DNA from: Aureimonas mangrovi
GTDB taxonomy: Bacteria > Pseudomonadota > Alphaproteobacteria > Rhizobiales > Rhizobiaceae
Length of the DNA stretch: 64,000 nucleotides
Direction: 5' to 3'
Assembly (NCBI RefSeq): GCF_014058705.1
Contig: NZ_CP059692.1
Location: 439,001-503,000 of the forward strand
The position numbers were made by a program, and so were the translations under genes. Positions 3,409 through 36,305 of this stretch are shown piece by piece. Positions within the stretch are counted from its first letter, which is position 1, and every line of letters begins with the position of its first letter. Below the pieces are notes generated by a model. The model was not told the DNA's origin. It worked only from the letters and a program-made list of their open reading frames with translations, and searched no databases.

Positions 3409-5067
<1,659 letters not shown>

Positions 5068-5142
5068 AACGGGTCTATGGGGCCGACTGGCCGATGGGGG
5101 TGCGAGGGGCATCGTTCATCGGGCTTTTCCGGAGAGTTTCCC

Positions 5143-8100
5143 ATGTTTCGCCTGCCGTCCCCGTCGCGCAGCCTCACGCTGGCCGCGACCGTCTCGATCC
5201 TTGCCCTGGCCCCTGCGATGGCGGCGGACTTCACGGTGCCCGCGGGAACGACCGACACGTCGTCCAAGACGGTGGCCGGCGCCGATCGCGGCTCGATCGC
5301 GAACGGCGCGGAACTGAACACCAGCGGCACCGCGATCACGCAGAGCGGCGCCGCGCAGGACGTGCGGATCGAGAACGCCGGCACCCTGCGTTCGGGCAAT
5401 CGCGGCCTCGACGCGACCGGCGGCTCGGGCACGCGCACGATCACCTTCGTCAATTCCGGGCTCGCGGAAACCGACGACGACACGTTCCGCGTCAACACGG
5501 ACGTGACGCAGGGCACCGTCACGATCGACAACTCGGGCGTGATGCGCTCGGACGGCGGGCAGGTGCTCGATTTCGCCTCGATGCGCTCGGGCGCCTCGCG
5601 CGTGGAACTGACCAACAGCGGCATCATGGAAGCGGCCGACAACGACGCGATCCGCTTCGGTGCGGGCTCGACCACCCTGCGCAACACCGGCGACATCCTC
5701 TCGACGCAGTCTGCGAACCGCGCGATCAACCTGAACTACGCCGGCAACCTGCCGGTGTTCGAGCTCTACAATGACGGCCGCATCCTCTCGATCGACGACG
5801 CGGTGCGCATCAGCGAGGTGCCGACGCTCGGCAACGTGCTCGTGGAGAACCGCGGCACGATCGCCTCGCGGGGCACCGGCGACGATGCCGGTCAGGCCAT
5901 CGACTTCAACGGCGCACGCGCCGAAAGCATCGTCATCCGCAACTACGGGCTGATCGAGACGGCCGATGCCGACGCCGTGCGTCCCGGCCAGGGCGGCATG
6001 GTGGAGAACTTCGGCACCATCATCGGCCGCGCGGTCGATCCAAACGATTCCTCCGACGGCATCGACTTCCAGGACACGAATGTCGGCATGGTCGTCAACC
6101 GCACCGGCGGCGTCGTCGACGGCAACCGCCACGGTATCACCGGCAAGCTGCCGATGCCGATCCTCAACGAGGCCGGCGCGCTGATCATCGGGCGCAACGG
6201 TTCGGGCATCAACTACGACACGCTCGCCGACCAGGGCCCGATGGTGGTCACGAATTACGGCGAGATCGTCGGCGCCTTCAATCCGGATGCCGAGTACGGC
6301 GACGGAGACGGCGTCGACATCGACGCGATCGGCGAAATCTATAATTACGGCACGATCCGGGGCCTCGGCTCCAACGGCACCAAGGAGGGCGACCTCCTGC
6401 CCGCCACGAGCGAGGCGATCGCCATCGGTGGCGGCCTCGTCGTCAACGGCTCGGCCGAATACCGCGACGCGCTGATCAGCGGTGTCGACAACGGCATTCT
6501 GGTGGACGACAGCGACACCGGCAACGCCTTCGCGGCGATCTCGATCCTCAACCACGGCCGCATCGAGGGCCTCGACGGCTTCGGCATCCGCATCGTGAGC
6601 GCGGACGCCAACACGATCGAGAACCACGGCACGATTGCGGGCTCGAACGGCATCGCGGTCGAGTTCGGCGAGGGCGACGACCTCTTCGTCCATCACGACG
6701 GCGCCTCGGTCGAGGGTACGGTGAACGGCGCGGCCGGCACGGACACCTTCCGTCTCGGCGGCGCGGCCGGCCGCTTCGACGTCTCGCTCCTCGGCGAAGA
6801 GGCGACCTATCGCGGCTTCGAGACCGTCGATGTCGCGGCCGGCAGCGCCTGGACGCTTTCCGGTGAGAGCGCCTATGCCGGAGAGATACGCGTCGCGAAC
6901 GCCTCGCTGATCCTCGCCGACGCTGGGCTGTCGCAGTCGGCCGTCTCGCTCGTCGATGCTTCGCTCATCGGGACGGGCCGCCTTGGCTCGCTCGACGTAG
7001 CCCGATCGCAGGTCGCCATCGCTTCGGGGGAGAGCCTGGCGGTCGCCGGCGACGTCGCCTTCGACGCGGGCTCCAGCCTCCTTCTCGACGTTCAGGGCCG
7101 CAGCGGCGTGCTCTCGGCCGGCGGCGCGGTCTCGATCGCGGAGGGGGCGAGCCTCGTTCTCACCGGCACCAGCGGCTGCGCGACGGCGAGCCCCTGCACG
7201 ATCGTCACCTCGGGCGCCGGCATCGACGGTGCCTTCACGCTCGACAACCGCCTCGCCTTCCTCGGCGCCGACGTTTCCTATGTCGGCAATGACGCACTCC
7301 TCGCCCTGTCGCGCAACGGCGTCGGCTTCGCGGACGTCTCCGAGACGCGCAACCAGCGCGCCGTCGGCACGGCGCTCGACGTGCTCGGCTCCGGCGCCCC
7401 GCTCTACGACGCAGTGGTCGGGCTCGGCGCCGACGATGCGCGCGGCGCCTTCGACGCCCTCTCCGGCGAGGCGCACGCCTCGGTGAAGACGGGCCTCGTC
7501 GAGGTTTCCAACCAGGTCGCCTCGGTCGTCGGCGCGCGCCTGCACGCTTCGATGAGCGGGCCGGACAGCGCCTTCTCGACCTCGGGTCCCGGAGAGAGCG
7601 TCATGCCCGCCTACGGCGGCGGCATCGAGACGTGGATCAGCGCCTTCGGCGCGAGCGGCGAGACCGACGCGACGGGCGGCACCGCTAGCCTCGACCGCGA
7701 CACGCTCGGCGTTCTCGTCGGTGCGGATGCGCTGGTCGGCGGCAACACGCGCCTCGGCATCTTCGGCGGCTACTCGCGCTCCTCCTTCGATGTCGATGCA
7801 CGCGGCTTCTCGGCCGACAGCGACGACATCCATGTCGGCGTCTATGCCGGCACGCAGCTCGGCGGCCTGTCGCTGCGCGGCGGCGCCGCCTTCGGCTTCC
7901 ACGACATCGAGACCGAGCGCGGCGTCGCCTTCGCCGGTTTCGCGGATACGCTGGAAGCGGGCACTGACGCGCGCACCACGCAGGTCTTCGGAGAGGTCGG
8001 CTACGCCCTCGCTTTCGGCGCCGTCGAGTTCGAGCCCTTCGCGGGCCTCGCCTATGTCGATGTCGACATGGACGGCTTCTCGGAGACCGGCGGCCTTGCC

Positions 8101-8486: not shown

Positions 8487-9332
8487 TCAGATGTCGATCG
8501 TGGCCATCACCGGCACATGGTCGGAGGGGCGCTCCCAGGAGCGCGCCTCGCGCAGGACCCTCGCCGAGACCAGCTTTTCGCCGAGATCGGGTGAGGCCCA
8601 GATATGGTCGAGCCGGCGGCCGCGATCGCCCACCGTCCAGTCCTTCGAGCGGTAGCTCCACCAGGTGTAGAGCTTTTCCGGGCGCGGAATGTGACGGCGA
8701 ACGAGGTCGTCCCAGTCGCCTTCTGAAATGACGCGCAGAAGCCCGTCGGTCTCGACGGGCGTGTGCGAGACGACCTTCAGGAGCTGCCTGTGGCTCCAGA
8801 CGTCCTCCTCGAAGGGCGCGATGTTGAGATCGCCGACGAGGATCGCCGAGACGTTCGGCTCGCCGCCCGAGCGCATGGCCCGCAATTCCTCGATGAAGTC
8901 GAGCTTGTGGCGGAATTTCGGGTTGATCTCCGGGTCCGGCTCGTCGCCGCCCGCCGGGACGTAGAGGTTGTGGATGCGCACCTGCCTCTCGCCGACGCGC
9001 ACGCGCGCAGAAAGATGCCGGGCATCGCCGATGGCGCAGAAATCCTGCCGCACGATGTCCTCGAAGGGCGTCTTCGAGATCGTCGCGACGCCATGGTAGC
9101 CCTTCTGGCCGTGGATCGCGACGTGCTCGTAGCCGAGCGCGGCGAAGGCCGCCTCGGGAAACAGCTCGTTCGGACATTTCGTCTCCTGCAGGCACAGGAC
9201 GTCCGGCGCGTGCGTCTTCAGGAAATGCTCGACCAGCGAGAGGCGCAGGCGCACGGAATTGATGTTCCAAGTGGCGATGGTGAAGGGCAAGGAGGTCTCG
9301 CGGGCAGATCGTGTGGGGAGGGCTTTGCGCAT
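8487..9332 (-). CDS. xth: exodeoxyribonuclease III
   Basis: AP endonuclease/3'-5' exonuclease of base-excision repair, 281 residues from the chosen start. Family motifs are in order: IATWNINSVRLRL, the metal-binding glutamate in LCLQETK (residue 50), GYHGVATISK, the VGDLNIAPFEEDVW loop with catalytic Asp/Asn, RLDHIWAS, and C-terminal SDHVPVMATI. Homologues usually start just before FTIATWNIN; the nearest ATG upstream is at 9332, giving about 15 extra residues. A TTG at the LPFTIA position is the alternative. It is convergent with the autotransporter and divergent from the hydrolase gene. Confidence 0.93.
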   Translation of the reverse strand: MRKALPTRSARETSLPFTIATWNINSVRLRLSLVEHFLKTHAPDVLCLQETKCPNELFPEAAFAALGYEHVAIHGQKGYHGVATISKTPFEDIVRQDFCAIGDARHLSARVRVGERQVRIHNLYVPAGGDEPDPEINPKFRHKLDFIEELRAMRSGGEPNVSAILVGDLNIAPFEEDVWSHRQLLKVVSHTPVETDGLLRVISEGDWDDLVRRHIPRPEKLYTWWSYRSKDWTVGDRGRRLDHIWASPDLGEKLVSARVLREARSWERPSDHVPVMATIDI

Positions 9333-9424
9333 CCTGTAGCCGAGTGTTGCGCGCCGAGGCAACGATGCCGGGGCCGGTGCGTTTGAACCGATCCCGCGCA
9401 TCGGCGCATTCGAAGGAGGGCGCC

Positions 9425-10303
9425 ATGTTCGAGGGTTTCGAGACGCGCACGATCGCCGGCGAGGGTGCCGAGATCTTCTGCCGCCTCGGTGGCGACGGAC
9501 CGCCGCTTCTCCTCCTCCACGGCTACCCGCAGACCGGCGCCATGTGGGCGCCGGTCGCGGCGCGGCTCGCGGAGCGTTTCACGCTCGTCGTGCCGGACCT
9601 TCGCGGCTACGGGCAGTCCTCGCGGCCCGAATCCAAGAACGGCGAGGGCTATTCGAAGCGCATCATGGCGCGCGACATGGTGGCGGTGATGGCAGCGCTC
9701 GGCCATGAACGCTTCCGCCTCGCGGGACACGATCGTGGTGCGCGCGTCGCCTATCGCCTTGCGCTGGATTCAGGGCCGGGCGTCGAGCGGCTCGCGCTCC
9801 TCGACATCGTTCCGACTGCGGAGATGTGGTGTGCGATGGACGCGGCGTCTGCGCTGAAGTCCTATCACTGGCCGTTCCTCGCCCAGCCGAACCCGGTGCC
9901 GGAGCGCCTGATCGCGGCCGACCCGGTCTTCTATCTCGACCACACGATCACGAGCTGGACCAAGGGGCGCTCTCTCGCGCCATTCGCGCCGGAGGCGATG
10001 GTGGAATATCGTAAGGCCTTCGCGCAGCCGGGCGCGGTCCACGCCATGTGCGAGGACTATCGCGCCGGGGCCACGATCGACTGTGAAAACGACGAGATCG
10101 ACCGCAAGGCGGGGCGACGGATCGCGGCGCCGACGCTCGTCCTGTGGGGCGAGCACGGCACGCCCGCCGCCGGCGGCGACGTCCTGGCGACATGGCGCAA
10201 CTGGTGCGAGAGCGTCGAGGGTAAAAGCTTCGATGCCGGCCATTTCCTCGTCGAGGAAGCGCCGGATGAGACCGGCGCCGCGCTGGAACGCTTCTTCGCC
10301 TGA
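9425..10303 (+). CDS. alpha/beta hydrolase, haloacetate (fluoroacetate) dehalogenase-like
   Basis: Soluble alpha/beta-hydrolase of 292 residues. HGYPQ (32-36) forms the oxyanion region and the nucleophile sits in HDRGAR (Asp103). The His-Trp pair at 148-149, Tyr212 and Arg104/Arg107 match the halide and carboxylate pocket described for fluoroacetate dehalogenases; His273 in AGHFLVEEAP and Asp128 complete the triad. These enzymes hydrolyse haloacetates to glycolate and halide. ATG 9425 has a strong GGAGG ribosome site eight bases upstream; a longer reading from 9311 lacks one. No haloacetate transporter or regulator lies beside it, so the physiological substrate may be different. It ends seven bases from convergent lolA. 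Confidence 0.85.
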   Translation: MFEGFETRTIAGEGAEIFCRLGGDGPPLLLLHGYPQTGAMWAPVAARLAERFTLVVPDLRGYGQSSRPESKNGEGYSKRIMARDMVAVMAALGHERFRLAGHDRGARVAYRLALDSGPGVERLALLDIVPTAEMWCAMDAASALKSYHWPFLAQPNPVPERLIAADPVFYLDHTITSWTKGRSLAPFAPEAMVEYRKAFAQPGAVHAMCEDYRAGATIDCENDEIDRKAGRRIAAPTLVLWGEHGTPAAGGDVLATWRNWCESVEGKSFDAGHFLVEEAPDETGAALERFFA

Positions 10304-10310
10304 ATGCCGA

Positions 10311-10958
10311 TCAGCGACCGCCGCCGATGCGCCCGCGCGACTGCTGGGAAATCTGGTTGTAGGGGATGGCGAACTGCGCCTGATCGACGGACACGCCTTC
10401 CTGGACGTTGTCGATGATGACGGTCGTGTCCTTGCCCTGCTGGTCGCGGATCGTCCACTGGCGCAGATCGTAGGTGTTCGGATCGAACATCATGGTAATG
10501 CGGGACGAGCCGAAGACCGAGCGATCGCCCATCACGATGGTGATGAGCTCCGGCGTCTGCTGCACGTCCTGGATGTTGGCGGCCGAGAGGTCGATGCGCC
10601 TATCGAGCAGGAGCTTCATCGGGGTCTGGGACAGCGGGTAGAGGTCCCAGGTGTTGAGGCGCGCATTGTTGATCGCCACCTGGCTGCCGTCGGCGATCAC
10701 ACGCAGCGGCTGGCCGGAATAGTCGAAGCGGATCTTGCCCGGTCGCTCGATCGAGAAGGTGCCCTCGGACTGGTTGCCGGCCGCGTCGAACTGCAGGAAG
10801 TTGCCGGTCATTGATCGCACGGACGAGAAATGGTCGGCCACGGCCTGCGCCGTCGCAGCAGCGGGCTGTTGGGCCGCCGCCGGCAGCGGAGCGAGCGCCG
10901 CGCTCGCGAGCGGCGCTGCCAGTGCGAGAGCGAAAAGGGCGTGGAACGGTCGTTTCAT
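10311..10958 (-). CDS. lolA: outer-membrane lipoprotein carrier protein LolA
   Basis: Periplasmic chaperone that carries lipoproteins from the inner-membrane LolCDE complex to the outer membrane, 215 residues. The N-terminus is a typical Sec signal (MKRPFHALFALALAAPLAS, cleavage probably at the AAAQQ segment near residue 30). The mature part has the LolA pattern: FSSVRSMTGNFLQ, ERPGKIRFDYSG, a VAINNARLNTWDLYPLSQTP strand region and a C-terminal FAIPYNQ. The length fits the family. It lies downstream of ftsK on the same strand with a 167-base gap, a neighbourhood often seen in Hyphomicrobiales. Confidence 0.92.
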   Translation of the reverse strand: MKRPFHALFALALAAPLASAALAPLPAAAQQPAAATAQAVADHFSSVRSMTGNFLQFDAAGNQSEGTFSIERPGKIRFDYSGQPLRVIADGSQVAINNARLNTWDLYPLSQTPMKLLLDRRIDLSAANIQDVQQTPELITIVMGDRSVFGSSRITMMFDPNTYDLRQWTIRDQQGKDTTVIIDNVQEGVSVDQAQFAIPYNQISQQSRGRIGGGR

Positions 10959-11011
10959 GTCGGTCTGTCTCGTCCTCGAATGTCCGGCGCGGGGCCGAGC
11001 CTCGTCCCGAT

Positions 11012-11029
11012 CGCGAAGCTAGCTTCGCG
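11012..11029. repeat. 18-base perfect palindrome between lolA and ftsK
   Basis: CGCGAAGCTAGCTTCGCG is a perfect 9+9 palindrome 54 bases upstream of the lolA start and about 97 bases past the ftsK stop. It could be an operator for lolA or a short hairpin ending the ftsK transcript (7-base stem, 4-base loop, no U-tract). Function is unknown. Confidence 0.4.
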
Positions 11030-11125
11030 CTGCGGCCCGATTGCGGCGCGGCCCGTCCGTGACAGATGGGACGCCATCACGCTTTCGCCAGCGCACGGGG
11101 CCTTACCGTTTGGTCAGGCGCGCTT

Positions 11126-14266
<3,141 letters not shown>

Positions 14267-27559: not shown

Positions 27560-27634
27560 GCGGGTGTAGCTCAGGGGTAGAGCACAACCTTGCCAAGGTT
27601 GGGGTCGAGGGTTCGAATCCCTTCGCCCGCTCCA
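27560..27634 (+). tRNA. tRNA-Gly (anticodon GCC)
   Basis: 75-base tRNA including encoded CCA. The acceptor stem GCGGGTG pairs with CGCCCGC, the D arm is GCTC/GAGC, the anticodon stem CAACC/GGTTG encloses loop TTGCCAA with anticodon GCC, and the T arm contains GGGTTCGAATCCC. It is the last core-like feature before the accessory-looking region; tRNA 3' ends are frequent island attachment points, but no repeat of the 3' end was found downstream in the window. Confidence 0.97.
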
Positions 27635-27912
27635 ATTCTCTCCAGTATATCGATGCTCTAAGATTTCTACTTCTCCGATTTTTCGCAGTCGGGAGTCGCC
27701 CGTTTTCGACGATCTGTGGAAGCGCAGAGGAAGTTGGGGTTACTTCCGGATCGCGCTTACAATCGCGACGGGCGTTGCGGGAGTGGTGGCGGTCGCGGGC
27801 GATCGGCAGAAAAGAAGATCACGTTCGCAGCTCGGCTCGCAGCAGCGCTTATAGGCGCGCAGGTTCCTGAGGGTCTTGCTCGGCGACAGGACAGCCCCGC
27901 GGCGCGCAGATT

Positions 27913-28386
27913 TCATATGAAGGCGATCCAGCGTCCTGCGACAACGGCGCCGGACCAGAGGGAGAGAGATACAAGAGCAGCGGTGCGCCCTCCCAAACCG
28001 CCGACCATGCCAACGACGTCGCTCGTGTGCGAAGCGACCCTCAACGCAATCGCATTGGTTCCAGCTGCCAGCAAGATCACGAGTTTGGCTAGAAACGCCG
28101 GGTTCTGCGCGTAGCTTCCGATCCGTACCGACGCAAGCACGATGCCCGTCGTCGCAGTGAGAGCGAAGCCGCAGAGCGCCAGACGGATTAGTGCCGGGAC
28201 GACGGCATCGAAATCCGCGCCCAGAACGCCCAGCAGCCGGAGGTCGACGGGCAGGATAGAGCCGAAGAGGACGCCGATGCCGAGGATGTGCAAGGCCGAG
28301 ATCATGGGATAGATCCCCGGCACCGTCACGATGAGACGAACGGCCTGCAGCCCCTCTATCCATTCGAAGAAGGACGTCAGCGGCAT
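27913..28386 (-). CDS. membrane protein, DUF6644-like
   Basis: 157-residue protein with four hydrophobic helices. The N-terminal FFEWIEGLQAVRLIVTVPGIYPMISALHILGIGVLFG and VDLRLLGVLGADF pattern matches small membrane proteins annotated as DUF6644, which resemble b-type cytochrome helices; a conserved His sits in SALHILG in helix one. It is the last gene of the molybdenum hydroxylase operon and overlaps the DUF6152 gene by ten bases. A role in electron transfer or anchoring is inferred only from context. Confidence 0.7.
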   Translation of the reverse strand: MPLTSFFEWIEGLQAVRLIVTVPGIYPMISALHILGIGVLFGSILPVDLRLLGVLGADFDAVVPALIRLALCGFALTATTGIVLASVRIGSYAQNPAFLAKLVILLAAGTNAIALRVASHTSDVVGMVGGLGGRTAALVSLSLWSGAVVAGRWIAFI

Positions 28387-28844
28387 CCGTCCACCCCGGG
28401 TGCCCAGTCTCCCGTGTAGGAAACGACGGTGCCGTCCGACAGACGCAGCCAGGTGCTGCGCAACTGGTGCGGCGCGAGACAGTTCCGCAAGGCAACCACG
28501 ACGACGCGGTCACCGACGCTGAGTTGGTCGGCAAGATCGTAAAACATGCGCACGGGAGAAAGCTCGACCTCACGCACCGGACCCACATCCTCAGGTCGCA
28601 CGACAGCCGGGCCAAAATATTCGTCGGGTCGGCCGACGACGAAGGCGGGCGGCTCGTTCGTATCCACCTGGATCGAGAGCATGGGATGGGGAGGAGAGAA
28701 CGCTGCCGCTGTCAACGTTCCGGAGAGGACGATCGGCGTCGCGGCATCGTATTGCCCGGTCACGCCGTGGTGTGCGCGGGCGGCTCCGGCAACGCCGAGC
28801 GCAAGGGCTGCAACGACGCAGAGTCGGTTGATCATGGAGAGCAT
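28377..28844 (-). CDS. periplasmic protein, DUF6152-like
   Basis: 155-residue secreted protein. A Sec signal (INRLCVVAALALGVAGAARA) is followed at once by the family hallmark HHGVTGQYD, then a beta-rich domain with PHPMLSIQVD, RVVVVALRNC and GTVVSYTGDW. Proteins of this type are usually encoded beside DUF6644 and molybdenum or aldehyde oxidoreductases. The chosen ATG 28844 has a GGAAGG site nine bases upstream. Two cysteines in the mature part could form a disulfide. The molecular role is unknown. Confidence 0.72.
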   Translation of the reverse strand: MLSMINRLCVVAALALGVAGAARAHHGVTGQYDAATPIVLSGTLTAAAFSPPHPMLSIQVDTNEPPAFVVGRPDEYFGPAVVRPEDVGPVREVELSPVRMFYDLADQLSVGDRVVVVALRNCLAPHQLRSTWLRLSDGTVVSYTGDWAPGVDGCR

Positions 28845-28875
28845 GAATGTGACCCTTCCGATTTGGGTGCTGGTC

Positions 28876-31026
28876 TCACAACAGATCCTCGACGCGGATC
28901 GGCAGATGGCGAACCCGTGTCCCGGTCGCGTGGAACACCGCATTGGCGATCGCCGCGGAAGCGCCGACCATCACGACCTCGCCGAGCCCTTTAAGGCCGG
29001 TCTCGTTGGCCAGCGGGTCCGGCTCGTCGATCATGCCGACCTCAATCGCGCCGATGTCGGCATTGACGGCAACGACGTAGTCGGCGAGGTCGCAGTTGAG
29101 GTAGCCGCCGAAGCGCGGATCGATCTCGGTCTCCTCACGCAAGGCCGCACTCAGCGCCCAGACCACGCCGCCGTAGATTTGCGATCGAGCGGTGCGCGGG
29201 CTGATCACACGGCCGCAATCGGCGATGGAGACCACGCGTGGCACGCGGATGCGACGCGTGCTCGGCTCGATGCGCACCTCCACGAAATGAGCGATGTAGC
29301 TCATCGTCGTGAACGCCGGATAGGCCGGTCCTGCAACCGCAAAGCCGCCTTGACGCAGCTCGTCCACGGCGCTCGGGTCCTGTCCGGGTGCAAGATGTGT
29401 GATCTCGACCTCCAGGAACGGCCTGCGAACCGCCGCGAGTTGCTGGTGCGCGTTGCCGACGATCCGGCGCCCGTCGAGAAGTTCGGCAAGGCGCTCGGCC
29501 ATGCGGCGCGCCGCCTGCTCGGCTGCGGGGATCGCACCTGCCGAGCCCCAGGATCCAGCGGTCATGTGCTGAGGCGCGGCGCCGGTGTCGCCGATCGCCA
29601 CCTCCAGCCGCCCGGCGTCGATCACTATATGCTTGAGGACAGCCTGGACCACCGAGGTCCGCAATCCTTGCCCCATTTCGTGACCGGAGAGCGCGATACG
29701 CGCGGTGCCGTCTGCGTTCACGCGGAAGGTCACGACCGATGCCGTCATGCTCGAAGGGTAGGCACCGCATGCCATACCCCAGCCTACCCGCATGCCGTCC
29801 TGGCCGGTCATTGAACCCGGCTCCGGCGATCGCGTCGACCAGCCGAAGCGGCGGGCACCCTCGCGGATGCATTCGTTGAGGAACCGGGAGGACAAGGGAT
29901 TGCCGGAAAGCGGATCGGTGACGGTGTCGTGCGACAGGCGCAACTCGACCGGATCGCCCCCAAGAGCGTAGGCCATCTCGTCCACGGCACTCTCGAACGC
30001 GAAGCAGGAGGCCTGCGGATGCGGTGCACGCATGTAGCCGGGGTCCTGCCGGTCGATCCTCAGGTTGGCGGCGGAGCCGTGGTAGTTCGGAATATCGTAA
30101 AGGCGGCTCGGTGCTTCGTGGTACTCGTTTGGCGGAAAGAAGCCGGAGCGAGACTGTTCGTGCTCGGCCTCATAGCGCACGGCGACCAGGCGCCCGTCAC
30201 CGTTCGCTGCAAGCTGGACATGGTGGTTCGAGCGCGGTCGGTAGGTCGCCGTATGGAAGATCTGGGAGCGCGGCGTCACCAGCTTTACGGGGCGGCCCAG
30301 CAGGATCGATGCATGCGCGACGATCGCCGACTGGCGCAGCGGGATGCCTTTCTGACCGAAGCCACCGCCGACATGCGGGCTTTTCACGTCCACGAAGGCC
30401 GGATCGATCCCCAGCGCGCCGGCGACCGCGTTGCGGGTACCGGTGGTGAACTGAGAGCCCTCGTAAATCGTCAACCGCCCCGCCTCCCACACGGCCGTCG
30501 TCGACAGAAGCTCGATCGGGTTGTGGTGTTGGGTGGGCGAACGGTAGCGCTGGTCGATCAAAGTCGCGGCGTTGGCGAGGAGCGGCAAGGCGTCGCCAGC
30601 AACGGTGTCGTCTACCGCTTCGCGCTCGGCACCCGCGCTGTCCATCAGCGCGGCGAAGGGTGATTCGCGATATTGTGGTCGGATCGCCTCAGCGCCCTCC
30701 ACCGCCGCCTCCAGCGTTTCGGCCACCACGAGCGCGACGGGCTGACCGCAGTAAGCGATTTCCCATGTCAGTGTCGGCGGCGGTGGCCAATCACTCGCAG
30801 CGTCGGCGGCTGGGAAGTCGTCCGGCGTCAGGACACGGACGACGCCAGGGATTGCCAAGGCGTCCGCCGTGTCGATCGTCGTGACCACGCCGAGGGCGAT
30901 GCGCGCGGGCACCGTCATGGCGTGGATAAGACCGGGCAGCGGTATGTCGGCGGCGTAGATCGGGCGGCCGCGGACCTTCTCGGCCGCGTCGACCCGGGCT
31001 CGGTCACCGAAGGGCGTGGTTGGCAT
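28876..31026 (-). CDS. molybdopterin-binding subunit of xanthine/aldehyde dehydrogenase family (PaoC-like, copy 1)
   Basis: Catalytic molybdenum-cofactor subunit, 716 residues. The 'hammerhead' N-terminal domain (KVRGRPIYAADIPLPG) is followed by the cofactor domain with GGGFGQKG at 220-227, RIDRQDPGYMRAPHPQ, SGHEMGQGLRTSV, and the C-terminal KGLGEVVMVGASAAIANAV whose Glu is the catalytic base of the family. No signal peptide is present, so export would depend on the Tat-tagged iron-sulfur partner. It is closely similar along its length to the adjacent upstream gene, with near identity from YIAHFVEVR onward. It lies in the six-gene minus-strand operon. Substrate class (aldehyde versus N-heterocycle) cannot be fixed; PaoC-like partners favour aldehydes. 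Confidence 0.9.
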   Translation of the reverse strand: MPTTPFGDRARVDAAEKVRGRPIYAADIPLPGLIHAMTVPARIALGVVTTIDTADALAIPGVVRVLTPDDFPAADAASDWPPPPTLTWEIAYCGQPVALVVAETLEAAVEGAEAIRPQYRESPFAALMDSAGAEREAVDDTVAGDALPLLANAATLIDQRYRSPTQHHNPIELLSTTAVWEAGRLTIYEGSQFTTGTRNAVAGALGIDPAFVDVKSPHVGGGFGQKGIPLRQSAIVAHASILLGRPVKLVTPRSQIFHTATYRPRSNHHVQLAANGDGRLVAVRYEAEHEQSRSGFFPPNEYHEAPSRLYDIPNYHGSAANLRIDRQDPGYMRAPHPQASCFAFESAVDEMAYALGGDPVELRLSHDTVTDPLSGNPLSSRFLNECIREGARRFGWSTRSPEPGSMTGQDGMRVGWGMACGAYPSSMTASVVTFRVNADGTARIALSGHEMGQGLRTSVVQAVLKHIVIDAGRLEVAIGDTGAAPQHMTAGSWGSAGAIPAAEQAARRMAERLAELLDGRRIVGNAHQQLAAVRRPFLEVEITHLAPGQDPSAVDELRQGGFAVAGPAYPAFTTMSYIAHFVEVRIEPSTRRIRVPRVVSIADCGRVISPRTARSQIYGGVVWALSAALREETEIDPRFGGYLNCDLADYVVAVNADIGAIEVGMIDEPDPLANETGLKGLGEVVMVGASAAIANAVFHATGTRVRHLPIRVEDLL

Positions 31027-31045
31027 CGATGCCTCTTCCGAGCAG

Positions 31046-33205
31046 CTAGAGAAGGTGTTCGATACGGATTGGCAGGCGCCGGAGGCGAACGCCCGTCGCG
31101 TGATGGACTGCATTGGCGATCGCCGCCGAACCGCCGGCCATCGCCACTTCGCCAAGACCCTTCAGCCCCGTTGCGTTGGCGATCGGGTCCGGCTCGTCGA
31201 TCATGTCGACCTCGATAGTGCCGATATCGGCGTTCACCGCGACGACATAGTCGGCGAGGTCGCAGTTGAGGTAGCCGCCGAAGCGTGGGTCGGTCTCGGT
31301 CTCCTCGCGAAGGCTCGCGCTGATCGCCCAGACGACGCCGCCGTAGATCTGCGAACGTGCCGTGCGCGGGCTGACCACACGGCCGCAGTCGGCGATTGTC
31401 ACGACGCGGGGTACCCGAATCCGCCGCGTGCGCGGTTCGACGCGCACCTCCACAAAATGGGCAATGTAGCTCATGGACGTGAAGCCGGGATATTCAGGCC
31501 CGCCGACGGCGTAGCCGCCACCTTGCAGCGCGGCCAGCGCTTCGGCCTGATCCTGCCCTGGCGCCGTCTGCGATACTTCGACCTGGAGATAGGGTCGGCG
31601 CGTGGTGGCGAGCTGGCGATGCGCATTGCCCGGGACCGCACGCCCGTCGAGAAGCTCGTCGATCCGAGCGCGCATCTGCCGGGCCGCAGCCTCGGCGGCG
31701 GGCACCGCACCGGCGGTGCCCCATGAACCGACAGTGATGTGTTGCGGCGCGCTGGCGGTGTCGCCGATCACGATCTCCAGGCGAGCCGGGTCGACATCGA
31801 TATGCTGGAGCACGGCCTGGGCAATCGCCGAGCGGATGCCCTGACCCATCTCGTGGCCGGAAAGGGCGATCCGGGCGCTGCCATCGGCTCGCACCCGGAA
31901 CGTCGTGATCGAAGGCACCATCATCGCGGGATAGGCGCCGGCGGCGACACCCCAACCGATAAGCGTCCCGTCTCCTGCGGTCATGGAGCCGGGGCGCGGA
32001 TCGCGCGCCTGCCAGCCGAACCGCTGTGCTCCTTCTCGCAGGCACTCGTCTAGGAAACGCGAGGAAAGCGCGTTTCCGGTCAACGCATCAGTCTCGGTCG
32101 CGTTGGCCAGACGGAACTCCACCGGATCGCGGTCGAGTGCGATCGCCAGTTCATCGATCGCGCTTTCAAAGCCAAACAGCGCCGGCTGCGGATGCGGGCA
32201 GCGCATGAATCCGGGGTTTTGCCGATCGGAGCGCAGATAAGTCGACGTGCCGAGATAGTGCGGGATACCATACATGCGCGGCGGCGCGTCGTGGTAACGG
32301 TCCGGCGGCGGATCCATCCCGAGGCGGGACTGCTGCTGCTCGGCATCGTGCCGCACGGCCACCATGCGTCCGTTGACATCGGCGCCGAGGCGGATCCGGT
32401 GCTGGCTCATCGGGCGATAGGTGGCAACGTGAAAGATCTGCGAGCGCGGCATCACGAGCTTCACCGGTTGGCCAAGGATCATCGCAGCACGCGCCACGAT
32501 CGCAGTCTGGCGCTGTGTCGGCCCGCGTTGCCCGAACCCTCCGCCGATATGGGGGCTTTTCACCTCGACCAACGCCGGGTCCAGGCTGAGAAGGCGCGCG
32601 AGGTCCTGCTGGACGCCGGAGGAGCGCTGCGTGCCCTCGTAGATCGTCAAACGGCCCTCCGCCCAGACTGCCGTGGTCGCGAGGAGCTCCATCGTGTTGT
32701 GATGCTGCGTCGGCGAAATGTAGGCTTGATCGATCACCGTCACCGCGTTTGCGAGCCCGGCTGCAGTGTCGCCAGCAATGACGTCCTCGATCGCATCGCG
32801 CGTGGCATCGTCACCGCCGACCGTGAACGCCTCCTCCTCGAACACGGGTCGGATGGTCTCGGCACCCTCGATGGCCGCCTCCAGCGTTTTGGCCACCACC
32901 AGCGCGACGGGCTGGCCACGATAGGCGATCTGCCAGGTCAGCGTTGGCGGAGGCGGTGCGTAGTCACCGCCGGACTGCACCGGGGTGGCCGGGAAGTCGT
33001 CCGGCGTGAACACGCGCACCACGCCCGGAACGCGCATCGCTGCCGCAATCGACATCTCGACCACGACGCCACGCACGATGCTGGCGGGCACCGTAATCGC
33101 GTGCAGCAGGCTCGGCAGGGGCATGTCGGCGGCGTAGATCGGCCTACCGAGCACCTTCTCGCGGGCATCGAACCGCGGCCGTTCCGCGAAGACAGCACTG
33201 GGCAT
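31046..33205 (-). CDS. molybdopterin-binding subunit of xanthine/aldehyde dehydrogenase family (PaoC-like, copy 2)
   Basis: 719-residue paralogue of the neighbouring catalytic subunit, with the same domain order: hammerhead KVLGRPIYAADMPLPS, cofactor loop GGGFGQRG at 221-228 (Arg in place of Lys in the other copy), SGHEMGQGIRSAI, and catalytic Glu in KGLGEVAMAGGSAAIANAV. It lacks a signal peptide. The gene ends 19 bases before copy 1 starts and itself starts three bases past the FAD gene stop. Both copies look intact, so the complex could have two alternative catalytic subunits with different substrates, or one mixed complex. Confidence 0.9.
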   Translation of the reverse strand: MPSAVFAERPRFDAREKVLGRPIYAADMPLPSLLHAITVPASIVRGVVVEMSIAAAMRVPGVVRVFTPDDFPATPVQSGGDYAPPPPTLTWQIAYRGQPVALVVAKTLEAAIEGAETIRPVFEEEAFTVGGDDATRDAIEDVIAGDTAAGLANAVTVIDQAYISPTQHHNTMELLATTAVWAEGRLTIYEGTQRSSGVQQDLARLLSLDPALVEVKSPHIGGGFGQRGPTQRQTAIVARAAMILGQPVKLVMPRSQIFHVATYRPMSQHRIRLGADVNGRMVAVRHDAEQQQSRLGMDPPPDRYHDAPPRMYGIPHYLGTSTYLRSDRQNPGFMRCPHPQPALFGFESAIDELAIALDRDPVEFRLANATETDALTGNALSSRFLDECLREGAQRFGWQARDPRPGSMTAGDGTLIGWGVAAGAYPAMMVPSITTFRVRADGSARIALSGHEMGQGIRSAIAQAVLQHIDVDPARLEIVIGDTASAPQHITVGSWGTAGAVPAAEAAARQMRARIDELLDGRAVPGNAHRQLATTRRPYLQVEVSQTAPGQDQAEALAALQGGGYAVGGPEYPGFTSMSYIAHFVEVRVEPRTRRIRVPRVVTIADCGRVVSPRTARSQIYGGVVWAISASLREETETDPRFGGYLNCDLADYVVAVNADIGTIEVDMIDEPDPIANATGLKGLGEVAMAGGSAAIANAVHHATGVRLRRLPIRIEHLL

Positions 33206-33207
33206 CC

Positions 33208-34227
33208 TCAGGTCCCCCGACCGGCGGCGATCAGAAGCGCGTCCGCCACGGTCCGGGCGCCGAGCTCCACCTTGAAGATGTTCGCCCGTCCCGGCACGGC
33301 CTCGGCGAAGGCGGCTCTTCCGGCCTCGAGCGCGACCGTGTCCGAAAGCTCGCGCCCGGCGAGTACGCCTTCCGCGGCCTCCGATCGCCACGGGCGCGTC
33401 GCGACGCCGCCGAGCGCGACCCGCGCGCGCTCGACCCGCGCGCCCGTCATCTCCAGCGCGACCGCCGCGGATGCGATCGCAAACGCGTATGATTCGCGGT
33501 CGCGGATCTTGTGATAGGTGGATCGTGCGCCGGCTGCGCTCTTCTCCACCACGATGCCGACCACCAATTCGCCGGGCTCGAGCGTGAACTCCAGATGCGG
33601 CGTCTCGCCCGGCAGCCGATAGAGGTCCGCGACCGGGAGCTCGCGCTCACCCGCGGGACCTACGAGTTGAATTCGTGCGTCCATGGCGACCAAAGCGACC
33701 GGCCAGTCTCCCGGCGAGACCGCGGTGCACGCGTTGCTGGTACCGAGCACCGCTTGGCCACGATCGAGCCCGCCGATTGCCGCGCAGCCACTGCCGGGCA
33801 CGCGCTTGTTGCACGGATAATCCGCCGCGCCGCCGCTCGCTCCGCCGTAGCCATTTCGGAAATAGAGGCAACGCGTGCGCTGGAGGAGGTTCGCCCCAAC
33901 GGTCGCCATGTTGCGCAGCTGCTGTGAAGCCGCCTTCGACAGTGCTTCGGCGAGGACCGGATACTCGTCGCGTATGACAGGGTCCGCGGCAACCTGCGCC
34001 ATACGGGCGTTCGCGCCGAAGCGCAGCGTCTCGCCTGCGGTCTCGACTGCGTCCAGCCCTTCGATGAAAGTGACGTCGACGAGCGCCGTAGGCCGCTCGA
34101 TGTTGAGCTTCATCAGATCGTAGAGGGTGGTGCCCCCGGCGACGTAGCGTGCGCCGTCGCTGAAACTTGCATAGGCAGCGATGGCGTCCGCTATGCTGAC
34201 CGGGCGCTCGTAGCGGATCGGTCGCAT
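33208..34227 (-). CDS. FAD-binding subunit of molybdenum hydroxylase, [4Fe-4S]-containing PaoB type
   Basis: 339-residue flavin subunit (CoxM/XdhB fold). FAD-loop motifs are YVAGGTTLYDLMK at 29-40 and NMATVGANLLQRTR at 106-119. Right after the second lies an insertion with Cys120, Cys139, Cys148 and Cys167 (TRCLYFRN, YPCNKRVPGSGC, SNAC), the arrangement that binds a [4Fe-4S] cluster in E. coli PaoB. This sets the enzyme apart from ordinary xanthine dehydrogenase. Its ATG overlaps the stop of the iron-sulfur subunit gene (ATGA). Confidence 0.9.
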   Translation of the reverse strand: MRPIRYERPVSIADAIAAYASFSDGARYVAGGTTLYDLMKLNIERPTALVDVTFIEGLDAVETAGETLRFGANARMAQVAADPVIRDEYPVLAEALSKAASQQLRNMATVGANLLQRTRCLYFRNGYGGASGGAADYPCNKRVPGSGCAAIGGLDRGQAVLGTSNACTAVSPGDWPVALVAMDARIQLVGPAGERELPVADLYRLPGETPHLEFTLEPGELVVGIVVEKSAAGARSTYHKIRDRESYAFAIASAAVALEMTGARVERARVALGGVATRPWRSEAAEGVLAGRELSDTVALEAGRAAFAEAVPGRANIFKVELGARTVADALLIAAGRGT

Positions 34228-34868
34228 CAGCTTCGCCTCATCTCGACGGCCGCTTGCTGGATGGCGGCGACGATGCCGACATAGGCGCCGCATCGGCAGA
34301 TGTTGCCGCTCATGTACTCGCGGATGCGCTCGACTGAATCCGCATTGCCTTCTCGAACGCAGGCGACTGCCGCCATGATCTGCCCTGGCGTGCAGTAGCC
34401 GCACTGGAGCGCGTCGTGATCGATGAAGGCCTGCTGCATGGGATGCAACTCATCGCGGTCCGAAAGACCTTCGATGGTCACCACCTCGCGACCTTCCACC
34501 TTGGCGGCGAAGGTCAGGCAGGAGACGATCCGCTGTCCGTCAATGTGGACGGTGCAGGCCCCACATTGCCCATGATCACAACCTTTCTTCGTGCCCATGA
34601 GCCCGAGTTGCTCGCGCAGCAGGTCGAGCAGCGAAGTGCGCGCATCCACGTCGATTTCGATCGCTTCGCCGTTGACCGTTGTACGCACGGTGAGTGCGTG
34701 CTCGGCAGCGACAGGAAGCTTGGGCAGGAGGTTTGCGTGCTCCTGCGCATGAACGCGGCCAATGAACGGCGCGGTGGAGGCCGCCGCCCCTGCAAGCAGT
34801 GCAGAGCGACGGGAAAGGACGAGCGCCCCTTCGGCTCGCGGATGTCGGTGGTCTGGTTCGTCCGTCAT
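34227..34868 (-). CDS. [2Fe-2S] subunit of molybdenum hydroxylase with Tat signal (PaoA-like)
   Basis: 213-residue iron-sulfur subunit carrying two [2Fe-2S] clusters. Ligands are Cys97/102/105/117 (plant-ferredoxin type, GCDHGQCGAC) and Cys156/159/191/193 (QCGYC and ICRC, helical type). The N-terminus has a twin-arginine signal (SRRSALLAGAAAS, Arg20-Arg21) with likely cleavage at VHAQE, so the assembled complex should be exported folded to the periplasm as in PaoABC. ATG 34868 is chosen; ATG 34877 three codons upstream is possible. First gene of the operon, divergent from tetR. Confidence 0.9.
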   Translation of the reverse strand: MTDEPDHRHPRAEGALVLSRRSALLAGAAASTAPFIGRVHAQEHANLLPKLPVAAEHALTVRTTVNGEAIEIDVDARTSLLDLLREQLGLMGTKKGCDHGQCGACTVHIDGQRIVSCLTFAAKVEGREVVTIEGLSDRDELHPMQQAFIDHDALQCGYCTPGQIMAAVACVREGNADSVERIREYMSGNICRCGAYVGIVAAIQQAAVEMRRS

Positions 34869-34938
34869 CGATCTCATCCCCAACTGACACGGGCCCGGCA
34901 TGCTCGGCGTTGCCGAAAACACGGCATCCGCCTATAAG

Positions 34939-34972
34939 TACGATTGGTATCGCTACATATGTACCAATCGTA
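34939..34972. promoter_or_regulatory. inverted-repeat operator between PaoABC-like operon and tetR
   Basis: Perfect inverted repeat with 11-base arms TACGATTGGTA (34939-34949) and TACCAATCGTA (34962-34972) around a 12-base spacer that itself contains the palindrome TACATATGTA. It lies in the 139-base AT-rich gap between divergent promoters, 70 bases before the first operon gene and 35 bases before tetR. Size and symmetry fit a TetR-dimer site that controls both directions. Confidence 0.8.
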
Positions 34973-35007
34973 TCTATACGTCAATTCTAAAGCGACGAAA
35001 TCTGCTG

Positions 35008-35598
35008 ATGAACACTCCGAAACGACGCCGCTCCATTGGCGCGCGGCCCAATCCGGAGGCGGCGAACGCGATCCTCGACGCCGCAGCCTCGCTTCTCGAG
35101 CGCAAGGGTCTGCGCGGTCTGACGACGGACGCGATCGCGCGCGAAGCGCGGGCCAGCAAAACGACACTTTACCGATGGTGGCCGAACCGCGGTGCGTTGC
35201 TTCTCGCGCTTTACGTGCGAGCGAAAGGTGACAGCGCGACGATCGACACCGGGTCGCTCGTCGAGGATGTTGCGCGGACCTATGCCCGGGTCTTCGAAGC
35301 CTGGCGGGAGCGCGGCCGTCTCTTCTCGCTTATCATTGCCGAAGCCCAGCATGATGACGGCGTGGCGCAGGCTCTGACCGTTTTTCGCGAGGAGCGCGTT
35401 CGCGAGTGGTTACCGACGTTGCGCCGATCCCGCGAACGCGGCGAACTCGCGGAGAATGCCGACCTTGATGCTATCGCCGAATCAATCGTCGCGCACGCCT
35501 GGTTCTACCTGTTGTCTAAACGTCTCGATGTTGATGCGAATATACTAGCCAAAAAGGTGGTTGGTGCTTGGATGCGCAATAAAGATATCGAAACGTAG
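35008..35598 (+). CDS. TetR/AcrR-family transcriptional regulator
   Basis: 196-residue repressor-type protein. The N-terminal helix-turn-helix reads AILDAAASLLERKGLRGLTTDAIAREARASKTTLYRWWPNRGALL in consecutive blocks, the standard TetR_N pattern. The C-terminal ligand domain (about residues 75-196) is specific to the subgroup and uninformative on ligand. The start MNTPKRRRS is selected because the upstream in-frame extension runs through the operator. It is divergent from the molybdenum hydroxylase operon and is most simply its regulator, perhaps sensing the substrate. Confidence 0.92.
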   Translation: MNTPKRRRSIGARPNPEAANAILDAAASLLERKGLRGLTTDAIAREARASKTTLYRWWPNRGALLLALYVRAKGDSATIDTGSLVEDVARTYARVFEAWRERGRLFSLIIAEAQHDDGVAQALTVFREERVREWLPTLRRSRERGELAENADLDAIAESIVAHAWFYLLSKRLDVDANILAKKVVGAWMRNKDIET

Positions 35599-35762: not shown

Positions 35763-36305
35763 CTAGAAGCCTACACTCGCTCGACCTGACCGTTCGTCCA
35801 AAGGTGACAGGGCTTGGTCAAGCGATGTTCGATATCGAGGTCTGCGCAGTCCCTCGAAGGCATGGCAGCGGAAGAGAACCGTATCGGCTCGCATCCGCCT
35901 GATCTCAGCCGGTGTCCACGTCGTGCCGGAAGGTTCGGTGAAGTGCGTTCCATTGTCGGTCAGCACCGCGTGGATCTTGTAGGGAACGGCGGTAGCGAGA
36001 GCCCGAAGGAAGTCTTTGGCGATGCGGCGGGTCGCCCTCTCGTGCAGTTCGACGAAGGCGAACTTGGTCGTGCGGTCGATGGCCACGAGGAGACAGAGCT
36101 TGCCCTCAGCGGTCCCACCTCGGCGATGTCAAAGTGGAAGTACCGATCGGGTAACGCTTGAACTTCGAGCGCCTGGGCTTGTCACCTTCGACATCAGGCA
36201 GCCGGGAGATGCCGGGGCGCTGAAGACATCGGTGCAGCGATGACTTCTTCAGATGGGGGATCGTTGACTTAGCCTGCGACAACGCGTGGTGGGCCGCCGT
36301 TTAAG
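35763..36305 (-). pseudogene. IS481-family transposase remnant
   Basis: Decayed DDE transposase. In order on the minus strand one can read AAHHALSQAKSTIPHLKKS, SSLHRCLQRPGISRLPDVEG, then after a frameshift YFHFDIAE, after another GKLCLLVAIDRTTKFAFVELHE, then RIAKDFLRALATAVPYKIHAVLTDNGTHF, and after a last shift IEHRLTKPCHLWTNGQVERV followed by a stop. These blocks match the IS481 integrase core. At least three frameshifts, a missing N-terminal third and a missing C-terminus show it is dead. No terminal inverted repeats could be located. Confidence 0.85.

Follow-up and report, generated by a model that had tools for sequence, protein, structure and literature searches.

In molybdenum hydroxylases, the subunits for electron transfer are commonly regarded as serving a single catalytic partner. 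One operon of Aureimonas mangrovi raises the question whether such a set may serve two: in a stretch of 64,000 nucleotides (assembly GCF_014058705.1, contig NZ_CP059692.1, positions 439,001 to 503,000; hereafter the window, numbered from its first nucleotide), one gene for a [2Fe-2S] subunit (A) and one for a flavin adenine dinucleotide (FAD) subunit (B) are followed by two genes for molybdenum catalytic subunits, C1 and C2. A first-pass annotation had described two intact molybdenum subunits behind one A and one B in a tight operon, and genes and domains were indeed found at the place given. The doubled operon is real, intact and conserved, and is of the PaoABC-like kind with two catalytic subunits. 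With moderate confidence, we read it as encoding two alternative periplasmic molybdenum hydroxylases which share a single A/B module for wiring and export.

The operon and its two catalytic subunits

As judged from the open reading frames (ORFs), six minus-strand genes, A, B, C1, C2, D and E, form one tight unit (Table 1): the A stop and the B start have one base in common, the gaps between B and C1, C1 and C2, and C2 and D measure 2, 19 and 31 nt, and the overlap between D and E is 10 nt. C1 and C2 are 67.2% identical (480/714), and both carry the Ald_Xan_dh_C, MoCoBD_1 and MoCoBD_2 domains above the Pfam cut-offs. Gln193, Arg335 and Glu686 (C1 numbering), whose catalytic roles we take to be those of the xanthine oxidase family, are kept in C1 and, at the equivalent positions, in C2. 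The AlphaFold models (pLDDT, predicted local distance difference test, 85.8 for C1 and 88.3 for C2) both matched in the PDB first MoALDH (5y6q_C, TM 0.91) and then PaoC (5g5h/5g5g, TM 0.88-0.89). Domains, active-site residues and predicted fold place C1 and C2 in the xanthine oxidase family, and a lack of cofactor residues in one copy, named beforehand as a result that would refute the reading, was looked for and did not occur.

The difference in the cofactor loop that had been noted before (GGGFGQRG in C1, GGGFGQKG in C2) is real; it is a small one, since the R is also present in the C1 orthologue of Geminicoccus and in three distant rows (L020, L021, L023) of a 39-row alignment. The statement that the C-terminal third is nearly identical had to be given up, as the identity of C1 and C2 is 0.61-0.67 by segment over residues 1-600, 0.92 over residues 601-660 and 0.78 over residues 661-719. 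The block 601-660 is about equally conserved in single-copy relatives (0.80-0.90 identity of C1 and C2 to L005 and L006) and is thus a property of the family rather than the trace of a recent duplication or conversion; the codon identity of C1 and C2 in this block, 0.65, lies inside the range of other comparisons. C-terminal gene conversion was ruled out on the grounds of this block and because quick trees built separately from the N-terminal, middle and C-terminal parts all keep the window pair united (SH-aLRT, the SH-like approximate likelihood ratio test, 94, 99 and 90; the C-terminal tree leaves out the second copy of Geminicoccus, which is cut off).

A Cys follows the active-site Arg in C1 (Cys336, window approximately 32198-32200) and an Ala in C2. 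CoxL has a copper-binding Cys in an AYRCSF loop, and Cys336 occupies the corresponding place. A copper site as in carbon monoxide dehydrogenase was a weak lead for C1: the motif is MRCPHP without AYRCSF, and among 113 proteins 7 have the same Cys, including 4 single-copy relatives. The CoxL profile TIGR02416 gave 113 bits versus a cut-off of 991.

Of the four subunits A, B, C1 and C2, A alone bears an export signal, a twin-arginine motif (SRRSALL); the hammerhead domain of C1 and C2 starts at residue 20, where a signal peptide would not fit (all by eye). Cys120, 139, 148 and 167 of B are kept at 35/35 loci (window included); we take them to be cluster ligands as in PaoB and HcrB, and the four-Cys insert is a probable [4Fe-4S] site.

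Relatives and origin of the tandem genes

Relatives were sought in genome contigs by means of exact short peptides, a scan that is not exhaustive, and 80 of 129 loci were retained; gene order was examined where the C gene had at least about 47% identity. The order A-B-C-C was found at 7 of 39 such loci, window included (a few of the 39 share a genome); some contigs, for example L009, end shortly past C, where a second copy could be missed. C1 and C2 are each 80% identical to their Geminicoccus flavidas orthologue. Matches occurred in 32 plasmid records, and just one of these, from R. etli 8C-3, listed two places. In even draws with two candidates scored per genome, a strong match occurred in 5/397 genomes at the level of the order, 2/385 at that of the class and 9/394 at that of the family, where another query was used (own genome counted). 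The operon was present in 0/20 congeners searched, one of which has a 49% relative, and the window genome has additional, more distant PaoC-like genes. Sphingomonas sp. BK580 (L143 4787-9397) also shows A-B-C-C, with copies that are 51% identical to each other and approximately 33% to C1 and C2, both having the catalytic Glu.

In the main tree (39 rows, IQ-TREE, LG+C20), C1 groups with the first copy of Geminicoccus (support 100/100), C2 with the second (100/99), and the four genes unite in one clade (100/100). Outside this clade lie the tandems of Rhizobium, Ensifer, Neorhizobium and Aurantimonas: their first copies group together (99/96), and their second copies fall in another part of the tree with weaker support; that of Aurantimonas (L014) stands apart in a 47-row tree (support 17). 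The sister group of the window clade consists of single-copy genes from Sphingomonas, Novosphingobium, Pannonibacter and a further genome (47-row quick tree, SH-aLRT only). A tree of A and B joined the window with Geminicoccus (100) and resolved little else. Two simpler histories were rejected by the approximately unbiased (AU) test, for which the groups were set by gene position and named after the tree had been viewed: one ancient tandem duplication for all, with all first copies forced into one clade (p 3.7e-7), and a clade uniting the second copies of the other tandems with C1 of the window (p 3.4e-9). Since the window/Geminicoccus clade is sister to single-copy genes and the rhizobial tandems lie elsewhere, the window doubling is, on the trees, a separate event which preceded the split from the Geminicoccus operon, and by the same evidence tandem copies arose at least twice in the family.

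Replacement of the catalytic Glu in other tandem operons

The catalytic Glu is regarded as essential in the xanthine oxidase family. Among 113 distinct proteins its column holds Glu in 106 and Gln in 6, one protein being cut off before it. All five rhizobial/Aurantimonas tandem operons seen carry Gln (KGLGQ) in their first copy; the sixth such protein is the lone C of an operon in an Aurantimonadaceae metagenome-assembled genome (L015), on whose contig another C-like gene, 48% identical to C2, lies approximately 10 kb away. The Gln copies show no sign of decay in the nonsynonymous over synonymous divergence (dN/dS, NG86), which is low in the pairs compared (0.013/0.142 for L007 versus L106; 0.076/1.04 for L007 versus L008). 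They are natural variants at a residue thought essential, apparently kept by selection. Among the titles and opening parts of abstracts listed from the open-licence literature, no description was found of this Glu-to-Gln change or of tandem or duplicated large subunits. The recurrence of the doubling and the loss of the catalytic Glu in another lineage both go beyond the first-pass annotation.

The Gln copies also make it possible to test whether C1 and C2 join in one assembly, for example an (A-B-C1)(A-B-C2) dimer, in which one copy regulates or supports the other. The repeated origin of tandem copies speaks for it, with a further tandem known from PaoC-like genes that are more distant, and first copies with Gln in 5/5 operons yet low dN/dS would suit a non-catalytic partner. 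For PaoABC, a 270-kDa band (approximate size) was suspected to be a dimer (PMC4273604, in excerpt). Such a complex nevertheless seems unlikely for the window, where both copies keep Glu, and the single-copy operon L015 also has Gln, so that Gln needs no Glu partner in the same operon. PaoABC itself is a single heterotrimer in solution, for which small-angle X-ray scattering showed no dimerisation through the molybdenum cofactor domain (PMC3958847, in excerpt). A wider proposal, to which we likewise give only a small chance, is that enzymes of the PaoABC type repeatedly took on, under selection, a layout in which two catalytic chains share one Tat-exported A/B module; the rhizobial chain that exchanged its catalytic Glu for Gln would then be a non-catalytic or otherwise specialised partner in a mixed dimer, and the window would represent a form with both chains still catalytic.

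Table 1 Features of the window, and tandem or Gln-carrying operons elsewhere (positions within the window or the respective locus)
Feature	Source	Position	Strand	Details
A, [2Fe-2S] subunit, 216 aa	Window	34227..34877 (or start 34868)	-	Fer2 + Fer2_2 (Pfam)
B, FAD subunit, 339 aa	Window	33208..34227	-	FAD_binding_5 + CO_deh_flav_C (Pfam)
C1, first molybdenum catalytic subunit, 719 aa	Window	31046..33205	-	GGGFGQRG; MRC at 334-336; Glu686
C2, second molybdenum catalytic subunit, 716 aa	Window	28876..31026	-	GGGFGQKG; MRA; catalytic Glu present
D, small secreted protein	Window	28377..28844	-	DUF6152 (Pfam 29.1 bits, cut-off 27)
E, membrane protein, 157 aa	Window	27913..28386	-	DUF6644 (Pfam 32.3 bits, cut-off 27)
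TetR-type regulator, divergent	Window	35008..35598	+	ORF from 34900; likely start 35008
Inverted repeat between A and TetR	Window	34933..34978		TATAAGTACGATTGGTA / TACCAATCGTATCTATA; arms 17 nt, 88% complementary, 12 nt apart
tRNA-Gly(gcc), one edge of variable segment	Window	27560..27634	+	
IS481-type transposase remnant, other side	Window	35763..36086	-	49.1 bits, cut-off 224
Tandem operon	L002, Geminicoccus flavidas			Second copy cut at residue 548 by contig end
Tandem operon, Gln copy	L007, Neorhizobium tomejilense	4564-6714		
Tandem operon, Gln copy	L008, Ensifer aridi	9001-11154		
Tandem operon, Gln copy	L010, Rhizobium laguerreae	9001-11154		
Tandem operon, Gln copy	L014, Aurantimonas endophytica	9001-11127		
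Tandem operon, Gln copy	L106, R. etli 8C-3	12001-14154		Conjugative plasmid pRsp8C3a
Lone C, Gln copy	L015, Aurantimonadaceae	9001-11157		

Selection and the proposed sharing of one electron-transfer module

With only one A and one B, two alternative trimers are the simplest reading of the window operon. A, by virtue of its twin-arginine translocation (Tat) signal the carrier, and B would bind one of the two catalytic chains while still in the cytoplasm, and A would then carry the finished trimer, A-B-C1 or A-B-C2, across the membrane. Once in the periplasm, C1 and C2 would act at their molybdenum centres on different substrates, which are most likely aldehydes, and electrons would pass to the two [2Fe-2S] clusters of A and on to the FAD and the [4Fe-4S] cluster of B. 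The operon is probably controlled by a TetR repressor that binds the inverted repeat with its 17-nt arms. The shared use of A and B, the separate trimers, the aldehyde substrates and the operator are what we infer. That doubling evolved more than once suggests one electron module serving two substrate-binding parts, and one A/B set with two maintained catalytic chains, evolved repeatedly, suggests that substrate range can be widened by swapping catalytic chains on a common export and redox module.

Both copies appear to be under purifying selection, with dN/dS versus the Geminicoccus orthologues of 0.133/1.214 for C1 and 0.137/1.431 for C2, values that are rough, as dS exceeds 1 and synonymous sites are saturated. 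Fixed differences between the two orthologue pairs occupy 72 of 544 columns. The 78 columns close to seven active-site landmarks hold 20 of them and the remaining 466 columns hold 52 (odds ratio 2.75, p 0.0017); such differences at the pocket are consistent with different substrates and support them.

Besides the saturation, several points weigh against two separate enzymes. The landmark windows were picked by the analyst, and the enrichment is not special to tandem copies: among 55 control comparisons between single-copy clades, enrichment at p<0.05 was seen in 18, an odds ratio above that of the pair in 5 and depletion at p<0.05 in 1. The divergence of C1 from C2 is thus of the kind that exists between many separate enzymes of the family. 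The NCBI equivalog cut-off of a known enzyme was reached in no case, and the substrates therefore cannot be named. Around the relatives, clusters of AraC_N (16/35 loci), SDR (8), aldo/keto reductase (5) and intradiol dioxygenase (5) genes recur, identified by Pfam on one representative each. The recurrence of the first three speaks for the aldehyde reading, but the window belongs to none of these clusters and has TetR instead.

The same data bear on the idea that both copies do the same job and that the duplication just raises the amount of enzyme. The common operon, the same domains and the intactness of both copies agree with it; it is improbable in view of 33% amino-acid divergence, the maintenance of two orthologous lines in two genera and the 72 fixed differences, enriched near the pocket. 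Least probable of all is that one copy, unexpressed or unassembled, is heading for loss: a C fragment beyond TetR in L002 of Geminicoccus indicates that copies can decay in this family, but those of the window are full length with low dN/dS versus their orthologues. Of the two possibilities offered by the first-pass annotation, two enzymes or a mixed complex, the common ground has held, namely that a single A/B module stands beside two catalytic subunits that are both intact, and the choice between them lies beyond sequence.

Regulator, small neighbouring proteins and genomic setting

The divergent TetR-type protein has a counterpart at the Geminicoccus operon, likewise divergent, with 78% identity (146/187). 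The inverted repeat between A and TetR is a probable operator; its 10-nt core ACGATTGGTA occurs within the window only in the two arms (0.03 expected by chance). A similar, less symmetric sequence (12/17 pairs, found by eye and not reported by the repeat search) lies ahead of the Geminicoccus operon, at about 7221-7264 of L002. At the same locus, the C-terminal fragment of another C gene (6194-6517), beyond TetR, adjoins a transposase-like sequence (by eye).

D homologues were found at 10/35 loci and E homologues at 7/35 (window included in both), and both DUF6152 and DUF6644 recur next to relatives of the A-B-C enzyme genes. The signal peptide of D ends in AHHG, invariant in 10/10 aligned homologues; we may speculate that the His-His at the mature N-terminus binds metal, and that D and E serve as an electron outlet or a metal-handling partner. 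No paper on DUF6152 was found in the open-licence literature.

Synteny with 6/6 congeners compared includes a thioredoxin-like gene and tRNA-Gly(gcc) and breaks off at 27635-27640. The 3' end of this tRNA is, by these comparisons, a variable spot in the genus; a congener (L137 5396-6444) has another, more distant A-B pair, belonging to this enzyme family, behind the same tRNA. The operon was probably acquired, because it lies behind the conserved tRNA and is absent from all 20 congeners searched, and the synteny break suggests integration at the tRNA. The last 14-30 nt of the tRNA have no second copy in the window that would form an att-like repeat, and no tyrosine-type integrase (PF00589) is encoded in the window, the nearest being at 310552; other recombinases were not searched for.

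Comparison with known systems

The designation PaoABC-like proved right in kind and too strong in detail. PaoC is the nearest NCBIfam family of C1 and C2, which scored 406 and 409 bits versus an equivalog cut-off of 1180, and PaoA is that of A (221 bits, under the cut-off of 322). A gene of the XdhC/PaoD type is missing from the window (439001-503000), the only XdhC_C (PF13478) matches in the genome being at 2071280 and 3360368. These XdhC-type genes could serve both copies; a sharing of such chaperones was suggested, and labelled speculative, in PMC2997495 (in excerpt). The operon has the Tat signal on A only (by eye) and the four-Cys insert in B; going by the features compared, it is not a PaoABC member.

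Escherichia coli PaoABC (PDB 5g5g, 5g5h) resembles the window operon in the order A-B-C, the Tat signal on A, the PaoC fold and the catalytic Glu (E692 in PaoC, counted in the alignment), and PaoB presumably has the same four-Cys site. It differs in having a single catalytic gene, at approximately 29% identity, and in Arg440 of PaoC (5g5h is titled R440H mutant), where the window copies have Tyr. Export of PaoB and PaoC depends on their joining PaoA in a complex, and no subunit is dispensable (PMC4273604, in excerpt). MoALDH of Methylobacillus sp. KY4400 (PDB 5y6q), the best PDB match of C1 and C2 by sequence and fold (31-32% identity), also has Tyr at the place of Arg440. As far as the excerpts go, PceSML, another enzyme of the xanthine oxidase family, oxidises many aldehydes (PMC5131310), which would fit aldehyde substrates of C1 and C2, and a urolithin enzyme has one catalytic subunit (PMC12771579). 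Nicotinate dehydrogenase (PDB 3hrd) belongs to the xanthine oxidase family as well and likewise uses two genes for the molybdenum part; its chains (425 and 330 aa), however, match different parts of one catalytic subunit, whereas the window copies are full length. The rhizobial/Aurantimonas A-B-C-C operons share with the window one A, one B and two catalytic genes of the same family, with D and E homologues nearby in 4/5 (not L008), and differ from it by another split of the C genes and by Gln in place of the catalytic Glu in the first copy.

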